This document shows, piece after piece, positions 4,851-38,754 of a stretch of DNA of 64,000 nt (positions within the stretch are counted from its first letter, which is position 1; each line of letters opens with the position of its first letter). A program made the position numbers and the translations under genes. The stretch spans positions 2,041,940-2,105,939 of the forward strand of contig OY282444.1 in NCBI GenBank assembly GCA_958296125.1. Reading direction: 5' to 3'. The notes below the pieces were generated by a model. The model did not search any database and was not told the DNA's origin. It worked only from the letters and a program-made list of their open reading frames with translations. The stretch is from an uncultured Poribacteria bacterium. GTDB lineage: Bacteria; Poribacteria; WGA-4E; PCPOR2b.

Positions 4851-5030
4851 TTAGGCAATGGTATCAATGGGGCGGTTAACTTTTAACATTGTCATTGCAA
4901 TACCGACCATGCCCTGTTGTAAGTCATCTCCTTCGATCGTCTTGTGAATTGAATAATTGTCCTTCGCAATTTTCCAACGCTGCTCGCAGAGAAAGGAAAT
5001 CTTCTCAATGCGAGCGGATAATTCTAAAAT
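4851..5030 (-). CDS. Possible small protein between mutS2 and dnaG, non-canonical start
   Basis: An open frame of 59 codons with protein-like composition (it contains ARIEKISFLCEQRWKIAKDN and ends MLKVNRPIDTIA) occupies the 382-base gap between mutS2 and dnaG, on the same strand. There is no ATG, GTG or TTG at its head; the frame opens after a TGA and the first plausible initiator is an ATT at 5030, about 10 bases after an AGAAGGA sequence. It may be a real gene started at ATT, or the remnant of a gene that lost its start. I do not recognise the family. Confidence 0.33.
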   Translation of the reverse strand: MLELSARIEKISFLCEQRWKIAKDNYSIHKTIEGDDLQQGMVGIAMTMLKVNRPIDTIA

Positions 5031-5052
5031 ATTAGTTCAAATTTCCTTCTGA

Positions 5053-7473
5053 CTATTCCTTCAATGTGACAATCGTTGCACCTGCTCCGCCTTCGTTGAG
5101 TGCTGCCAATTGAAAATCATTCACTTGCGCGTGGTCCTGCAAAAGGTCGTGAATTGCAGCCCGCAACGCTCCGGTACCTTTGCCATGAATAATCCGCACC
5201 CTCAGTAACCCCGCAAGAAATGCATCATCTATATATTTATCGGTTTCCGTCCAAGCCTCATGGACGGTTTTTCCTTGCAGATTCAACTCGGTTTTAACAT
5301 TCCCCGTCTTGCTATACTGGACATCCAAGATTGAGGTGGAGAGTTCGCGTTTGTTGTCTTCTGGGTGCACAGGCTCAATTTCGCCGTATGATACCCGCAT
5401 CTGCATGTTGCCAACCTTGACGAGTAAAGGAGTTCTCCCATTTGAAATTGAGAAGACCTCGCCAAATTGGTTCAGGCTTTTCACACGGACTTTATCACCG
5501 ACTTGCACCCTGATTGCATTGGGAGTTGGTTCTACCGAGCGTGTTTGCTGCTGGCATTCCTGCCTCAGTTTCCGCTGCGCCCCTTCAATACGACTAAAAG
5601 TGGTGCTGACACTGACTTTTGAGGCATTCTCTCGTCGCACTTCCGCTATCGTCTGTTCAACAAGTTTGCGCGCATCTTTGAGGATTGTAGCGGCTTCTCG
5701 CTCAGCTTGCTCCTGAAGTTCTTCCCGCTCCGCTTCGATCTGGTTGATTAACGCCGCGTGCTTTCTGGCGGCGGTATCCGCCACCCGGAGTTTCTCCTGC
5801 ACCATTTCACGTTCGACATCAAGTTCGTTCTGGGATGCCTGCATACTGACGATGAGATCTTCCACAGCAACAGTCTGGTTGCCTGTGTACGCCTTGGCGG
5901 CATCGGTAATTGCGTCAGGCATACCTAATCGCTGTGCAATTTTGAAGGCGTTACTACTTCCGGGTACACCAATCTGAAGGCGATAGGTGGGGCGCAACGT
6001 CTGCCAATCAAATTCCATTGAGGCATTTTCCATGCCTGCCTGTGCATGGGCGTATGCTTTCAGCGCACCGTAGTGGGTGGTCGCAACCGTGCGAACTTTA
6101 CGTGCCCCTAACCAGTCCAAGATTGCCATGCCGAGTGCTGCCCCTTCCGTCGGATCTGTGCCTGCCCCAATCTCATCCAACAACACCAACGAGTTTTCAT
6201 CTGCTTTTTTCAGGATGGCGATAATCTTGGTGATATGGGACGAAAAGGTGCTGAGATTCTGCTCGATACTTTGCTCATCACCAATATCGGCAAACATTTG
6301 GTCGAAGATGCCAACTTCGCTCCCCATTTTCGCGGGGATGTGCAGCCCCGACTGCGCCATGAGTGTGAGTAACCCAACCGTTTTGAGGACGACAGTCTTC
6401 CCGCCTGTGTTCGGTCCGGTGATAACCATTGTGTGAAATGTGTCGCCCAGCGTTGCATCAGTTGGCACGATCCGCTCTGGTAGACTAGGGTCGCGTTCTT
6501 CTTTCTTCAGTTTTGTGCTATCCCGAAACTTCATCTCAAGGAGCGGGTGTCTTGCTTCTATCAGCTTGATGGCACCTCGTACGTTAAGCATTGGTTCAAT
6601 GCCGTTGAGTTCCATGCTTAATCGCGCCTTCGCCCCCAGAAAATCCAATCCCCCCAATATATCCAAGGCCAGTTCCAGCACTGTCAAATGCTCGCGCACC
6701 AAGTCACTGAGCTCAAGCAGAATACGTCGTATCTCTTGGCGTTCCTCATCTGCTAGCTGATGCAGTTCGTTGTTGAATTCGACAATGCCAAAAGGCTCAA
6801 TGAAAGCGGTTGCCCCACTTGAGGATTGCCCTTGAACAACACCGGGAAAATTGTGCTTTGAATCTTGTTTGATGGGAATGACATAACGCTCATTGCGAGA
6901 GGTGATAACGTGTTCTTGGATAGATCGCTGATGGTGGGGAGAGTGGAGGATAATTTCTAACTTCGATTGAATGTTTGTTCGTGTGTGTGTCAACTTCCGG
7001 CGAATAGCGCGTAACGCGGGGCTAGCATGATCAAGGACATCACCATCTGGACTAAGACATCTGTCAATAGATTGGGTAATTTCAGGAAAGGTCGGAAGAT
7101 TGCGAACAATCGAGGATAGCTTGGGAAAGTCCTTCGGATTTCGCTTTTTGATAGCTCGTTGGACATTTTGGGCAGCCGCCGCCACGCGATCGATGCCAAG
7201 CAATTCGTCCACTTCCAAAATGGCACCGGGCTTCGACACCTTATGGAGTGTCGGAGAAATATCCTTTAAACCTTGCAGCGGAAAACCGTTGGAGGTTTGG
7301 TAGAAGGCTTTCGATTCGCTACATAACCGCTGCTGATAACGAACCGTATCAAGTTGCCGGAAGGGCTTCAACTTTGCTGCCCTTGACACCCCCAGTTGGG
7401 AGTGTGCATACTGCTTAAGCAATACCTTCAGCTTATCATATTCTAAGACTTTTTCAGTGTGAGGTGATATCAT
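5053..7473 (-). CDS. mutS2: Endonuclease/ribosome-rescue protein MutS2
   Basis: About 806 residues. A MutS-like clamp and lever region leads to the ABC-type ATPase with Walker A GPNTGGKT, Walker B LVLLDEIGAGTDPTEGAAL and the TTHYGALK switch. A charged coiled coil (about 520-630) follows, and the C-terminal Smr nuclease domain has LNLQGKTVHEA and HGKGTGALR. Family members lack the mismatch-recognition domain, suppress recombination and also act on collided ribosomes. ATG 7473 (AAGGT eight bases before) is preferred to an upstream TTG at 7503. It lies 69 bases downstream of the TPR gene and is probably co-transcribed. Confidence 0.95.
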   Translation of the reverse strand: MISPHTEKVLEYDKLKVLLKQYAHSQLGVSRAAKLKPFRQLDTVRYQQRLCSESKAFYQTSNGFPLQGLKDISPTLHKVSKPGAILEVDELLGIDRVAAAAQNVQRAIKKRNPKDFPKLSSIVRNLPTFPEITQSIDRCLSPDGDVLDHASPALRAIRRKLTHTRTNIQSKLEIILHSPHHQRSIQEHVITSRNERYVIPIKQDSKHNFPGVVQGQSSSGATAFIEPFGIVEFNNELHQLADEERQEIRRILLELSDLVREHLTVLELALDILGGLDFLGAKARLSMELNGIEPMLNVRGAIKLIEARHPLLEMKFRDSTKLKKEERDPSLPERIVPTDATLGDTFHTMVITGPNTGGKTVVLKTVGLLTLMAQSGLHIPAKMGSEVGIFDQMFADIGDEQSIEQNLSTFSSHITKIIAILKKADENSLVLLDEIGAGTDPTEGAALGMAILDWLGARKVRTVATTHYGALKAYAHAQAGMENASMEFDWQTLRPTYRLQIGVPGSSNAFKIAQRLGMPDAITDAAKAYTGNQTVAVEDLIVSMQASQNELDVEREMVQEKLRVADTAARKHAALINQIEAEREELQEQAEREAATILKDARKLVEQTIAEVRRENASKVSVSTTFSRIEGAQRKLRQECQQQTRSVEPTPNAIRVQVGDKVRVKSLNQFGEVFSISNGRTPLLVKVGNMQMRVSYGEIEPVHPEDNKRELSTSILDVQYSKTGNVKTELNLQGKTVHEAWTETDKYIDDAFLAGLLRVRIIHGKGTGALRAAIHDLLQDHAQVNDFQLAALNEGGAGATIVTLKE

Positions 7474-27441: not shown

Positions 27442-28194
27442 ATGAAAACCTATCAATGCTCCCTCAGTTTTTTTACCCTACTCACGCTTATCCTCAGTAT
27501 CGGTGCGCCTGCCCCAAGCCACCCCGATGGGAATGCTGATGGAGACCTTTTCACCTTTGTGAGGCTAAAATACACAGGGAATAGCTGGTTCGGTAACGGT
27601 TGGGATGTCGATTTGCCCGCCGCGGATCGAAATTTTATCCGGCAGCTCGCGCGAGCGACCAACATTCCCGTTGCCCGCCGCGAAAAAATCATCTCTGTTG
27701 GCTCTCCAGAACTGTTCAACTATCCCTTTGCTTACATCTTGGAAGTTGGCACGCTCAACCTGACCAATGCGGAAGCCGCAAATCTCCGTGAATATCTATT
27801 ACGTGGCGGCTTTATCATGGTTGACGATTTCCACGGTGGACAGGAATGGCGCAATTTTTATCGTCAATTCAAGAAAATTTTCCCGCAACGCGAGCCTGAA
27901 GACATCCCCATCACCCACCCGTTATTCCACTGTTTTTTCGATATCGACAGACTCCGTCAGATTCCCGGTCTGAGATCCCTATTCAATGGACGCACCCACG
28001 AGCGGCGTGACGGCTATCCCGCCTATTGCCGCGGCGTTTACGATGAAAATGGCCGCTTAATGATGATGATCAATTTCAATACCGATATCGGGGATGCCTG
28101 GGAACATGCAGCGGAGGGTTTCTATCCACGCGAGTTATCGGATATAGCATACCGCATGGGAATCAACGCTGTGGTTTATGCGTTGACGCATTAG
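27442..28194 (+). CDS. DUF4159 family exported protein
   Basis: 250 residues. A signal peptide (SLSFFTLLTLILSIGAPAPS) is followed by the DUF4159 fold: FTFVRLKYTGN at the head, NLREYLLRGGFIMVDDFHGG in the middle and ITHPLFHCFFDID later. These proteins have a glutamine-amidotransferase-like (flavodoxin-like) core, are common in bacteria that also have gliding or surface modules, and have no known reaction. It sits 68 bases after the PorV-like gene and is probably in the same transcript. No strong ribosome site is seen. Confidence 0.78.
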   Translation: MKTYQCSLSFFTLLTLILSIGAPAPSHPDGNADGDLFTFVRLKYTGNSWFGNGWDVDLPAADRNFIRQLARATNIPVARREKIISVGSPELFNYPFAYILEVGTLNLTNAEAANLREYLLRGGFIMVDDFHGGQEWRNFYRQFKKIFPQREPEDIPITHPLFHCFFDIDRLRQIPGLRSLFNGRTHERRDGYPAYCRGVYDENGRLMMMINFNTDIGDAWEHAAEGFYPRELSDIAYRMGINAVVYALTH

Positions 28195-28396
28195 TAGCCC
28201 GGATAACACAGGGTGCTGAGGGATTCGACCATGATCCGTCTTATGAGCAATGCACGATACAAGGATGGGAAAACGATAAGGAAGAAAAAATTGATTTTTT
28301 GTTGACAAGTTTTGCCAGGTGTGGAAGAAAAGCAGCAAGCGCGGATGCAGCGTTCTATGACTGCTTGAGGGGGCATAGCAATTAAGGGGGTTAGCG

Positions 28397-28858
28397 ATGA
28401 AAAGTAAAAAGCCAATCAAACCTCGCTGGTGGCAAGTGGAAATTGGGTTTATGCAAAGCGCAGGCTTTCGAGTGGTGATGAGGATGATTACACTAGCCGT
28501 CATAGGTTATTGTGGTTATAGCGTCTCAGTTTGGATTATCCAAAAGCGTGAGCATAACCGTCTGTTACGTCTCGATCAAGAGGCTAACCCTTCTGGATAT
28601 GTTCCACGACTGCCTTCTCCCCCGTTCAAAAACGAAGGTGCACCCAACGATTCCCCCCAAGAGGTAACTGATGGACAGCCGCCTTCCTCTGTGGAAAATG
28701 GTTCTCTCGCTGATCCGTGGATCAAGAGGTCTGCCACCCAGAATAGGTATTCTGGTGTGAACAAGCATAAGATGTTTATGGAGTGGATTGATACTGGGAA
28801 AAAAAACGATTTGATAGAGGCATACATTAAAGAGTCGCAAGCCAATAATCCGTTTTGA
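28397..28858 (+). CDS. Membrane-anchored protein, N-terminal half of a TGA-split gene
   Basis: 153 residues. One membrane segment (MRMITLAVIGYCGYSVSVW) is followed by a Pro/Ser-rich linker. AGGGGG precedes the ATG. The stop is TGA at 28856-28858; the same frame continues after it without any other interruption into 28865-29896. The intact relative at 37533-38270 has membrane segment, linker and the downstream domain in one chain, so this is the front half of one ancestral gene. Function unknown. Confidence 0.6.
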   Translation: MKSKKPIKPRWWQVEIGFMQSAGFRVVMRMITLAVIGYCGYSVSVWIIQKREHNRLLRLDQEANPSGYVPRLPSPPFKNEGAPNDSPQEVTDGQPPSSVENGSLADPWIKRSATQNRYSGVNKHKMFMEWIDTGKKNDLIEAYIKESQANNPF

Positions 28859-28864
28859 AGTAAG

Positions 28865-29896
28865 GTGATACAACGGGTTGTGAGCCCCCAGGGGCAAATT
28901 CACACCGTCCTTGTCCCCGAAGGATATGAGTATCAGGAGGGAGATGCTATCTTAAGATCGGAACTGAACCCGCCGACGCGCGTCTTTTCTTTCGGAGGGG
29001 ATCCGATGACATTGACAGTAGGCGGGGTTAAGTATGAAGTGCCCGGATATCATTCTATAGCGGATCCGTATGAACGTGAAGAGTATTTTAATAAATTCAC
29101 CTGGTCTATAAAAAATGGTGTTTCTATGGCTGAAGTTAAAAAAAAAGTAGAAGCAAGGGAACTTGATTTTTCGTTGTCTGAGAAAATGAGAAGATATGTG
29201 GATCGAATAGAGGGACAGCGGGAAAGGGCACAGTGGCTATCGGATCAGTTTCCAAAACCGCTGCCGCCTGACAGACCACCGGTGAAAGTGCGTTTTCTGC
29301 CCGATGAAGGTGAAGACGCACTACCGGGGTGGATGCAAAAACTGGAACGCAACCCCCGGCTAGAAAGCGGGGAAGCAGTAGCTAGCGGGAGTGATTCAGG
29401 AGTAGACCTTGTTTCTGAGGGAGACAGCCCTATTGATACAGAAGGGACGCTTTCTCCTAAAGATCTACCCGATATGGTCAAGCCGACACCTTCTGATCAA
29501 AGCATGGCAGAACTCGAAAAGCAATTGACACCGGAGGGGATTGAAACGAAACTGAGCAACGGGTTATCACCGGAGCGTTTTTCAAAGGTACAACAGTTGA
29601 TTGACCAGTATGGTACAGAGGAAGGGCTACGTCGTTTGAGGGAGATGGACCCTGAAGCTGCTAAACAATTTGAGCGGGAGCGGTCTGCTCCCCCTGTCCG
29701 TTCCAAGCCAGATGATGATGCACCCGCGACACAGAAGAGACAGATTTTTTTCAACACCCTAAACGATATCCTTCCTTTTAATCCCGTCTGTGGGGTAGGA
29801 GGGATACCGTTTTTTTACTTACTTTCCCGCCCGCGGACTTTCTCCCTTTTGCCGAGTATTAGAATTTTCCAAAAACGCGCACGAAGGTTTCCATAA
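28865..29896 (+). CDS. C-terminal half of the TGA-split gene (possible GTG restart)
   Basis: 343 codons from GTG 28865, in the same frame as 28397-28858. Residues 5-25 (VVSPQGQIHTVLVPEGYEY) align with IQAPNGNLRIIYMPAGREY of the gene at 37533-38270, and YFNKFTWSIKNGVSMAEV with YLDKMRWASAFSISIEEV. The long acidic/Pro-rich tail has no match there. The final 40 residues run through low-complexity sequence and overlap the end of the converging gene by 38 bases, so the natural end may also be altered. It could be made by reinitiation, by TGA read-through, or not at all. Confidence 0.5.
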   Translation: MIQRVVSPQGQIHTVLVPEGYEYQEGDAILRSELNPPTRVFSFGGDPMTLTVGGVKYEVPGYHSIADPYEREEYFNKFTWSIKNGVSMAEVKKKVEARELDFSLSEKMRRYVDRIEGQRERAQWLSDQFPKPLPPDRPPVKVRFLPDEGEDALPGWMQKLERNPRLESGEAVASGSDSGVDLVSEGDSPIDTEGTLSPKDLPDMVKPTPSDQSMAELEKQLTPEGIETKLSNGLSPERFSKVQQLIDQYGTEEGLRRLREMDPEAAKQFERERSAPPVRSKPDDDAPATQKRQIFFNTLNDILPFNPVCGVGGIPFFYLLSRPRTFSLLPSIRIFQKRARRFP

Positions 29897-31817
29897 AGTT
29901 ATCATCGTTCACGTCCGCGTTGGCGCGTTGATCGATATATTGTGCGCCGATGTGCAGAAACAGTTCTTTTTCGTAGGCGACAAAGCTCTTTTCCATCTCA
30001 GCCAGAAGGGCTTGGCGAATGAAATCGTTTCCATCCTCAAGCATATCGTTAAAGAGTAGCACCTGTCCACCGCCGGTAATTTTGATTGTCTTAGTGAATT
30101 GATAGACAACTTTGAGAATAAATGCAGCCGCCGCGTCGCGCACATCCGCCGCTTCAATGACACGAAGTCGGATATTGCGTGAAGTCGTTTCACCGTCGAT
30201 ATCTCCCATCAATGAAAGATGTTCCAGACGGTCTTCTGCCATCTGAAAACCGTTGCGAATTGTGTATTTGAACATCGGCGTAATTTCGAGCGATTTGGAT
30301 GGACGGATGCGGTAGTTTGTTTTCAGGATACCGACCTCGTAATGTTTGTTATCCCGATCGAAATCGAGATTGTATCGTAGTTTGAAGCGTCCTGTTGTAA
30401 CCATCTGCTTTATCCCCGAATATTCCCAAGTGACCTTGGCGGTGTTGATGAGATCATCCTGCATCAACAATGGATCTTTGCGTCGCTTCTCGACCTCAAC
30501 ACCGCTATCTATATCAAAAAACGTCACATCCCCTCGCGCCTCCATTTTCTGCACGTCAGGTTGCGCTCGGTAAAGTTGTCCTTCGGCTCTACTCAAGAAA
30601 CCGGCAAAGTACCACGTCTCATCGGGGATGCGGTCTTTTACCCACTTCAATTCGTTCTCGACCACCAAGGCAGCCTCCTGAGAGAGATCTTTCTTGTAAA
30701 TTATATTGGTGAACGCCTTTGTTGCCGTCGAAGAACGGCGGAACGCTGTATTCCTGAGATCCTTTTCAAATTGCAAACCAATATCGAGGTCTGTGGAACT
30801 GCCACTACGACTGGTCTTCCGTTTCATCAGCAGTCGCAGCCCACGCAGTCCAACATCAAATTCGTAATTGGGGTCTTTATCGTTCTCTTCCTCGTCCCGG
30901 AGCCCATTGTTATTCTGATCTCTTTCGTCAAGGAAATCCTCATCGACATCAAAGAGCAGAATATCGTCCTCATAATCAAAGGTGCCGTTGTTGTTCTTAT
31001 CAAGGTCGCCGGGAATAATCAGGGAAGGCGGGTCTAGCCATGTGTTATCGGTGTACCGGTCCTGATCATCGTTATCCCCGACAGAACGAGAGGCATCGAA
31101 ACGGGGACCGACGCGGAAGGCTTCCCCTTGAAAGATTGTGTCCCCAACGGTTCGGAATGCCTTAAACACTGTCGTCGCTGCGTCAAAACGCGAACCGAGG
31201 TCCTTTCTCAACGCGCTTTTTGGTGTCGTCGCGAACTCCGCCTTCAGACCGTAGTTTGCAAAGTTGGTCTCCATATCCAAAGCCCATACCGGCGTGTCGC
31301 GGAAATACCAAGAAACTCCCAGCTTGGACTTTCCGAATTTCGTCACTTCGCGTATGCCGACCCCCGACCCCTCGACACCTTCCTGGCCAATCACCGGATT
31401 GAGCAAGCCGGGGACCATTAAGATCATCCAATCGGTGCGTTCGGAGCGCACATCCCAACGCACCCCTGAGAGGTCAATCTGATCGAAGGTGAACTTTGTG
31501 AAGGTAGTGGGAACCTCTCCTAAACTCAAGATGTTTTTGACATTGCCAGCAGTTTCCTCAATAATCATGACGCTATGGAAGCCGCGCCGAAACACGCGGT
31601 CAAAATCGAACTCGTTCTGCCGGACTGCATCCTCCTCCGTATCTGCGAGAAAGTCTCGTTTATTAGTGAAATCATATTCCACACGCCCTGATATAAAGAG
31701 CTTGCCGAACAAACTGTAGACATCCTCCGCCTCTGCCGGAAAGGTCAAAAGGTTGAAGAGGAAAAGAACCGCAAAGCCGAAGACCGAAAACTTCGCCTTT
31801 ACCTTCCATTTATTCAT
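29859..31817 (-). CDS. Predicted outer-membrane beta-barrel protein with EF-hand-like calcium motifs
   Basis: 652 residues. Signal peptide (FAVLFLFNLLTFPAEAED). The chain is made of alternating beta strands with aromatic ends and closes in FMETFVRVFGKF, a Phe-ending strand typical of BAM substrates. An acidic insertion near residues 270-320 has two EF-hand/dockerin-like loops (DKNNNGTFDYED and DQNNNGLRDEEE), which probably bind calcium on the outside. The family is not recognised. It lies 36 bases downstream of the propeller fragment and shares its strong promoter. Confidence 0.65.
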   Translation of the reverse strand: MNKWKVKAKFSVFGFAVLFLFNLLTFPAEAEDVYSLFGKLFISGRVEYDFTNKRDFLADTEEDAVRQNEFDFDRVFRRGFHSVMIIEETAGNVKNILSLGEVPTTFTKFTFDQIDLSGVRWDVRSERTDWMILMVPGLLNPVIGQEGVEGSGVGIREVTKFGKSKLGVSWYFRDTPVWALDMETNFANYGLKAEFATTPKSALRKDLGSRFDAATTVFKAFRTVGDTIFQGEAFRVGPRFDASRSVGDNDDQDRYTDNTWLDPPSLIIPGDLDKNNNGTFDYEDDILLFDVDEDFLDERDQNNNGLRDEEENDKDPNYEFDVGLRGLRLLMKRKTSRSGSSTDLDIGLQFEKDLRNTAFRRSSTATKAFTNIIYKKDLSQEAALVVENELKWVKDRIPDETWYFAGFLSRAEGQLYRAQPDVQKMEARGDVTFFDIDSGVEVEKRRKDPLLMQDDLINTAKVTWEYSGIKQMVTTGRFKLRYNLDFDRDNKHYEVGILKTNYRIRPSKSLEITPMFKYTIRNGFQMAEDRLEHLSLMGDIDGETTSRNIRLRVIEAADVRDAAAAFILKVVYQFTKTIKITGGGQVLLFNDMLEDGNDFIRQALLAEMEKSFVAYEKELFLHIGAQYIDQRANADVNDDNFMETFVRVFGKF

Positions 31818-37532: not shown

Positions 37533-38270
37533 TTAACCGCTTTCCTTCTTGAAACGAAAGCTGGCGATCCAGTTGCGGCGGAATGGGGATGTCTCGTTGT
37601 CCCTGAAAATCGATCGCGAACAAAAGGCAACCTCTTCGATGGAGATACTAAAGGCTGAAGCCCAACGCATTTTATCTAGGTACGACTCGGCAGTTTCCCC
37701 TTCTGGAATATCTGAGTCCCGAACCGACATCGGCGCGTCGAACTCCCACGGAGGGAAAGCAGTAGGCCCGCTGGCCCACTCCTCTGACAGCCCAATATCC
37801 CCGTCTTTGTACTCTCTGCCTGCAGGCATGTAGATTATGCGGAGATTTCCGTTAGGGGCTTGGATAAGCAGCGGCTTCAGAGGAGCACCAGAAAGCTGCT
37901 CTCGCTGCGCCTCTAGCTTCGCCCGCACTTCTGGTGGAAGCTCCGACATGTCTACGGGTTTTGCTTTCCCCATATCTTCCTTTGAAATCACTGCCACTTT
38001 CACAGGAGGGGCGCTGATATCTAGCGGATGCGGCGGGTATGTCGTCGTTGAAGTGCTCGTATCTATCCCTTGAGGATTGGCTTCCGTCTGCTCAGTCCGT
38101 TCCGAGACCAGGGGTGGATTGGCCTCTTTATCCAAGGCTGCTTGAACTTTTGCCATAAACATCTCAAATTCAACATACTTTTGGTATTCCCTATAGCCCA
38201 TGTAGCAGACTGAAAGCAACACAACAATACCTACCACAATGAGATAGGGGCTGAAACGATGATTAACCAT
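37533..38270 (-). CDS. Membrane-anchored protein, intact paralogue of the TGA-split gene
   Basis: 245 residues with AGGAGG upstream. One membrane segment (PYLIVVGIVVLLSVCYMGY) is followed by a Pro/Thr-rich linker and a domain beginning LLIQAPNGNLRIIYMPAG, with SYLDKMRWASAFSISIEEV near the end. The same order is found at 28397-29896, where the chain is cut by TGA. Likely N-in with the domain in the periplasm. I do not recognise the family. It converges on the amidohydrolase gene, 26 bases apart. Confidence 0.6.
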   Translation of the reverse strand: MVNHRFSPYLIVVGIVVLLSVCYMGYREYQKYVEFEMFMAKVQAALDKEANPPLVSERTEQTEANPQGIDTSTSTTTYPPHPLDISAPPVKVAVISKEDMGKAKPVDMSELPPEVRAKLEAQREQLSGAPLKPLLIQAPNGNLRIIYMPAGREYKDGDIGLSEEWASGPTAFPPWEFDAPMSVRDSDIPEGETAESYLDKMRWASAFSISIEEVAFCSRSIFRDNETSPFRRNWIASFRFKKESG

Positions 38271-38754
38271 GATAACCTCCTAGCCTCCACATTCCCATCC
38301 ACTGGATCCGTAATGATCGGCATAAATGTATCTATTCTCAATGCGCCGTGTTCCTGGCAACTCTCTTCTTCCTTATAACCATCATTTAGACCTAAAAACA
38401 GAAAGAGGGCTGCATCCTCAAATCGCGCAACCCTTCTGTTTTGGATCGAAACCAATGGCTTAAACGGGTTATACTATGAAAGATTGTCAGATGTTGGTTC
38501 ACCTATCAATCATGAAGCGATTCGAGTCCATCTCTCGTCTTGCTTCAGAGGGCTTCGAGTATACGGCTTGAAGTCCCCACAATTATCGATCTTAAACCAT
38601 CTTGAAAAGGGTGTCAATAAAAAAGTTCACTTTATACGCATAAGCTCCCCTAGTTGCCCCTGGTGCACTTCTTTGTCTTAGTGTCGCCCAACTTTTTTAT
38701 TTACAAAACTGTCTAAGAACCTTCGACAGTGGAGATAACGAAAGCAGAAATAAT
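38271..38754. other. Intergenic stretch with an imperfect long hairpin
   Basis: 484 bases between divergent genes. An imperfect stem AAAACAGAA..GGG / CCC TTCTGTTTT spans 38395-38442. Otherwise I see no gene, tRNA or clear promoter; the ribosome site of the ubiD-like gene is weak. Confidence 0.35.

Follow-up and report, generated by a model that had tools for sequence, protein, structure and literature searches.

How does a gene come to carry a stop codon in the middle of its reading frame? The question is raised by positions 28397-29896 of the window, a 64,000-nucleotide stretch from the 5.16-Mb, single-contig genome of a sponge-associated member of Candidatus Poribacteria. On the + strand, 28397-28855 and 28859-29893 lie in the same frame, with one TGA (28856-28858) between them and a final stop, TAA, at 29894-29896. 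This bears out the sequence-only reading, in which 28397-28858 and 28865-29896 shared a frame and were separated by that TGA. The 345 codons that follow the TGA contain no further stop or frameshift; in random sequence of the same composition such a run would arise with a probability of ~4e-8, and the pairing of the two frames therefore exceeds chance.

The gene product falls in a multi-copy family whose named relatives are all Candidatus Poribacteria. In our genome and its sisters, the intact open frames span 329-483 codons. The encoded proteins start with a short hydrophobic helix; a variable linker leads to the middle domain, which is predicted to be mixed alpha/beta, and a second, disordered linker connects this to a conserved helical module at the C terminus. 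Structure prediction for an intact member gave a mean pLDDT of 64.7 and a pTM of 0.42, and the middle domain was confidently predicted at residues ~85-296 of the L072 member. The best match of the intact-member model to the PDB by fold had an E value of 0.68. By sequence, the full family had no match in the PDB and the C-terminal module alone gave only a chance-level one; Pfam, NCBIfam and PHROGs held nothing convincing for the family, and no relative was found among phage records.

The C-terminal module, of about 48 residues (SPERFxxAxxLLxxYGxEEGLRRLRExDPExAxxFER), is unannotated and lies near the end of many poribacterial proteins that otherwise differ and are mostly anchored at the N terminus. 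When it was searched alone it appeared in 54 of 85 genomes of the phylum that were compared, at 0-15 copies per genome and almost all in one order. Loci that carry it include L072:10524-11843, L073:3192-4415 and 4905-6452, L078 and L079, as well as our window at 29534-29677 (+ strand; SPERF..QLIDQYGTEEGLRRLRE.DPEAA..FER), where 48 residues near the protein end match with 91.7 bits (E 1.4e-25; G000:C1:2071473-2071616). The module is possibly an interaction or targeting tag.

Recognisable homology to this family begins ~27 codons before the TGA and extends ~290 codons beyond it. Upstream, residues 127-153 align to intact members with a score that was equalled in only 0-6 of 1000 shuffles; downstream, residues 155-445 align at ~50% identity to the intact paralogue of the same genome. 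Since family homology lies on both sides, we conclude that one ancestral gene has been interrupted by the stop, with the rest of the family frame, from the middle domain through the linker to the C-terminal helical module, at 28859-29731 on the + strand. The N-terminal part (28397-28855, + strand, 153 codons) comprises a hydrophobic segment and a linker, and matches the family only in its last ~27 codons. Its first 126 codons could not be reliably related to those of other family members, and a search for relatives of all 153 codons in 21 genomes and the compared family loci returned no reliable match. The broken gene is thus a member of the poribacterial C-terminal-module family through its middle and C-terminal parts, whereas no relationship is recognisable in its first 126 codons. 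An earlier claim that this protein and the one encoded at 37533-38270 join the same parts must for this reason be restricted to the middle domain.

We then asked what other members carry at the position of the TGA. Eight of them could be aligned there, with K, E, T, E, A, E, G and A, and neither a stop nor a Cys in any (0/8 for each). The seven intact relatives continue through the position with K, E, T, E, A, E or G, so that a homologous frame runs here through a stop that intact relatives lack. The column is hypervariable and is located just after a predicted helix. The TGA, whose conservation among homologues had been proposed as a check, is therefore not conserved, each aligned member having a sense codon.

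An in-frame TGA could be read as selenocysteine, and such decoding is possible in this cell, as the genome encodes selA, selB and tRNA-Sec. The search for these genes suggested by the sequence-only reading found all three in one cluster: a tRNA-Sec (76.6 bits, anticodon TCA), a SelB (370 bits) and an adjoining SelA-like ORF, the last recognised by eye from sequence and position. The three lie side by side in this poribacterium genome, in L064 and L056 (G000:C1:47917-51500). SelA and SelB are reported to occur together in most bins of sponge symbionts, which belong to various phyla (PMC5649159); the literature on Poribacteria with selenocysteine or pseudogenes otherwise supplied background only. 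Bacterial selenoprotein genes are identified by Cys homologues at the TGA and a SECIS-like stem, that is, a stable stem-loop just after the TGA with a small apical loop containing a G (PMC1088965). At 28879-28904 (+ strand), ~20 nt 3' of the TGA, there is indeed a stem with a 4-nt loop (TGTGAGCCC/CCAG/GGGC..TCACA), which had earlier been described as strong. The stem exists, but its stability is ordinary: the 81-nt stretch folds with a z of -0.70, and 50 of 200 shuffles were as stable, leaving it unsupported as a SECIS. The locus resembles bacterial selenoprotein genes (SelA/SelB/tRNA-Sec dependent, bSECIS) in its in-frame TGA, the machinery in the genome and the nearby stem, and differs from them in that Cys or Sec occurs in none of the homologues at the TGA column, the TGA is not conserved, a CxxU-type redox motif is absent and the fold is no better than that of shuffled sequence. 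The native stop of the gene, as discussed below, is apparently lost as well. With the machinery present and the evidence at the site negative, we reject selenocysteine decoding of this TGA as extremely improbable.

Programmed or leaky read-through of the stop, yielding the long protein, would equally account for the shared frame on either side and the long open frame 3' of the stop. Yet relatives do not conserve a stop at this codon, and UGA is an ordinary terminator in many genes of the window: as had been claimed before, TGA serves as a normal stop here and closes 11 of the 35 open frames that reach 250 codons. Moreover, the frame proceeds beyond the family end into unrelated sequence. We consider read-through highly improbable, and recoding of either kind at 28856-28858 is, as far as the sequence allows us to judge, unsupported.

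The end of the gene is itself informative. Family members terminate 28-47 residues past the conserved YG of the C-terminal module, and the broken copy ~95 residues past it. A comparison of this copy with L010/L076 (...EDAASTQ-stop vs ...DDAPATQ-KRQIFF...) places the usual family end at ~29731; from there a C-terminal extension beyond the end of the relatives (29732-29896, + strand) overruns by ~50 codons and enters the convergent gene 29859-31817 at its 3' end. Because the reading frame extends past the point where relatives end, the native stop has apparently been lost, as judged from an alignment of this variable tail.

This second putative lesion bears on the possibility that the TGA is a sequencing or assembly error, and that in reality a sense codon stands there and the gene is intact. 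An error would fit with a frame that is open and family-like before and after the TGA, and with the absence of a second lesion within the 345 codons that follow. Nevertheless, two errors would be needed if the native stop is gone too, and the one at the TGA would have to be a substitution. In long-read assemblies substitution errors are rarer than indel errors, which would make it the rarer type if this genome is such an assembly. An error seems quite improbable to us.

Alternatively, the gene could be split, its post-TGA part being produced separately, as a protein without the anchor, by reinitiation or internal initiation at GTG 28865 or ATG 29006. In favour of internal initiation are only the open downstream frame, with its family-like constraint, and a GGAGGGG motif before ATG 29006, a better downstream start than GTG 28865. 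No Shine-Dalgarno was seen at normal spacing before that GTG, however, and a start at ATG 29006 would drop the conserved segment VIQRVVSPxGxxHxVxVPxGxxYxEGDxI. Furthermore, no relative is built in this way. We regard such a split gene as unlikely, and it is similarly doubtful that the copy has become an anchor peptide plus a free soluble domain, with a stop that is tolerated since the half beyond it is made alone.

Of the mechanisms that the sequence-only reading had listed for this site, then, nonsense mutation is supported, whereas programmed read-through, like selenocysteine, is not; reinitiation at GTG 28865 is less likely, with no Shine-Dalgarno seen there at normal spacing. Nonsense mutation is supported by the absence of a stop from all eight aligned members, by other copies in the genome that are broken in other ways and by the apparent loss of the native stop. 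We sought to elucidate how old the lesion might be. The post-TGA part differs from the intact L072 paralogue by a pairwise dN of 0.37 and dS of 0.85, values in the range found between intact copies. Signs of decay in the broken copy are hence mixed: its native stop is apparently lost, yet dN and dS do not set it apart from intact copies. The latter, together with the open frame, suggest that the lesion is recent or that the downstream part is still translated.

The surroundings of the gene bear on its origin. It sits between two convergent genes, 27442-28194 and 29859-31817, which are direct neighbours, 18-191 bp apart, in the other five genomes of the genus (5/5). The ~1.67-kb stretch that carries the gene (28195-29859) is missing from the same place in these five sisters, and since the flanks adjoin there, it is either lineage-specific among the genomes compared or was lost once in the others. 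That the sister genomes lost the gene, with no insertion having taken place here, could in principle be the case. At the borders of the insertion a search for repeats found only short, chance-level ones and no clear target-site duplication.

The genome contains four full-length-type members of the family, of which only G000:C1:2022523-2023839, ~47 kb upstream of the broken copy, is intact. The second family copy in the window, at 37533-38270 on the - strand, had been taken for an intact paralogue, and this proved wrong. It matches a sister-genome member (L080, genome G001) over residues 1-201 and not beyond, its family match stops at profile position 241, and the C-terminal module is absent. 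The final ~27 codons correspond, in reverse complement, to the end of a small gene resident on the + strand, which is kept between the same neighbours in a sister genome. Lacking the family's C-terminal part and ending antisense to a neighbouring resident gene, 37533-38270 is a 3'-truncated insert. The insert that holds this truncated copy occupies 37615-38735 and is absent from the three sister genomes checked; neither a transposase nor a clear target-site duplication was seen in it. A third copy, at G000:C1:797.6-798.9 kb (L073:17611-18866), is split by a frameshift into frames of 109 and 335 codons, through either a genuine lesion or an indel error. In a sister genome, a divergent relative (L080:4708-5682) stands in tandem just upstream of a full-length family member; it is similar in its middle region and has no recognised C-terminal module.

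Taken together, the internal stop, the apparently lost normal end and the empty site in related species make an ordinary decaying duplicate most likely, and not special decoding. On sequence evidence, the locus is very probably a pseudogene-like copy disrupted by a nonsense codon; the family to which it belongs is multi-copy, membrane-anchored at the N terminus and found in Candidatus Poribacteria only. The copy would have entered an intergenic gap through duplication or transfer and would now be decaying, its lesion probably recent; translation would end at the TGA and leave a 153-aa anchor/linker fragment without the middle and C-terminal domains. In its single in-frame stop, its apparently lost native end, its lineage-specific location and its coexistence with paralogues that are intact or broken in other ways, it resembles nonsense pseudogenes of multi-copy bacterial families. 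It differs from them in that what is left of the frame is still open and family-like, and so looks recent.

These results close a possible recoding case, gene decay being the best explanation of the in-frame TGA despite the selenocysteine machinery. Decaying copies like 28397-29896 should be filtered out when such genomes are searched automatically for selenocysteine or read-through genes. The locus also points to an unannotated protein family of sponge-associated Poribacteria with rapid gain and loss, whose intact members are found side by side with truncated, frameshifted and nonsense copies.
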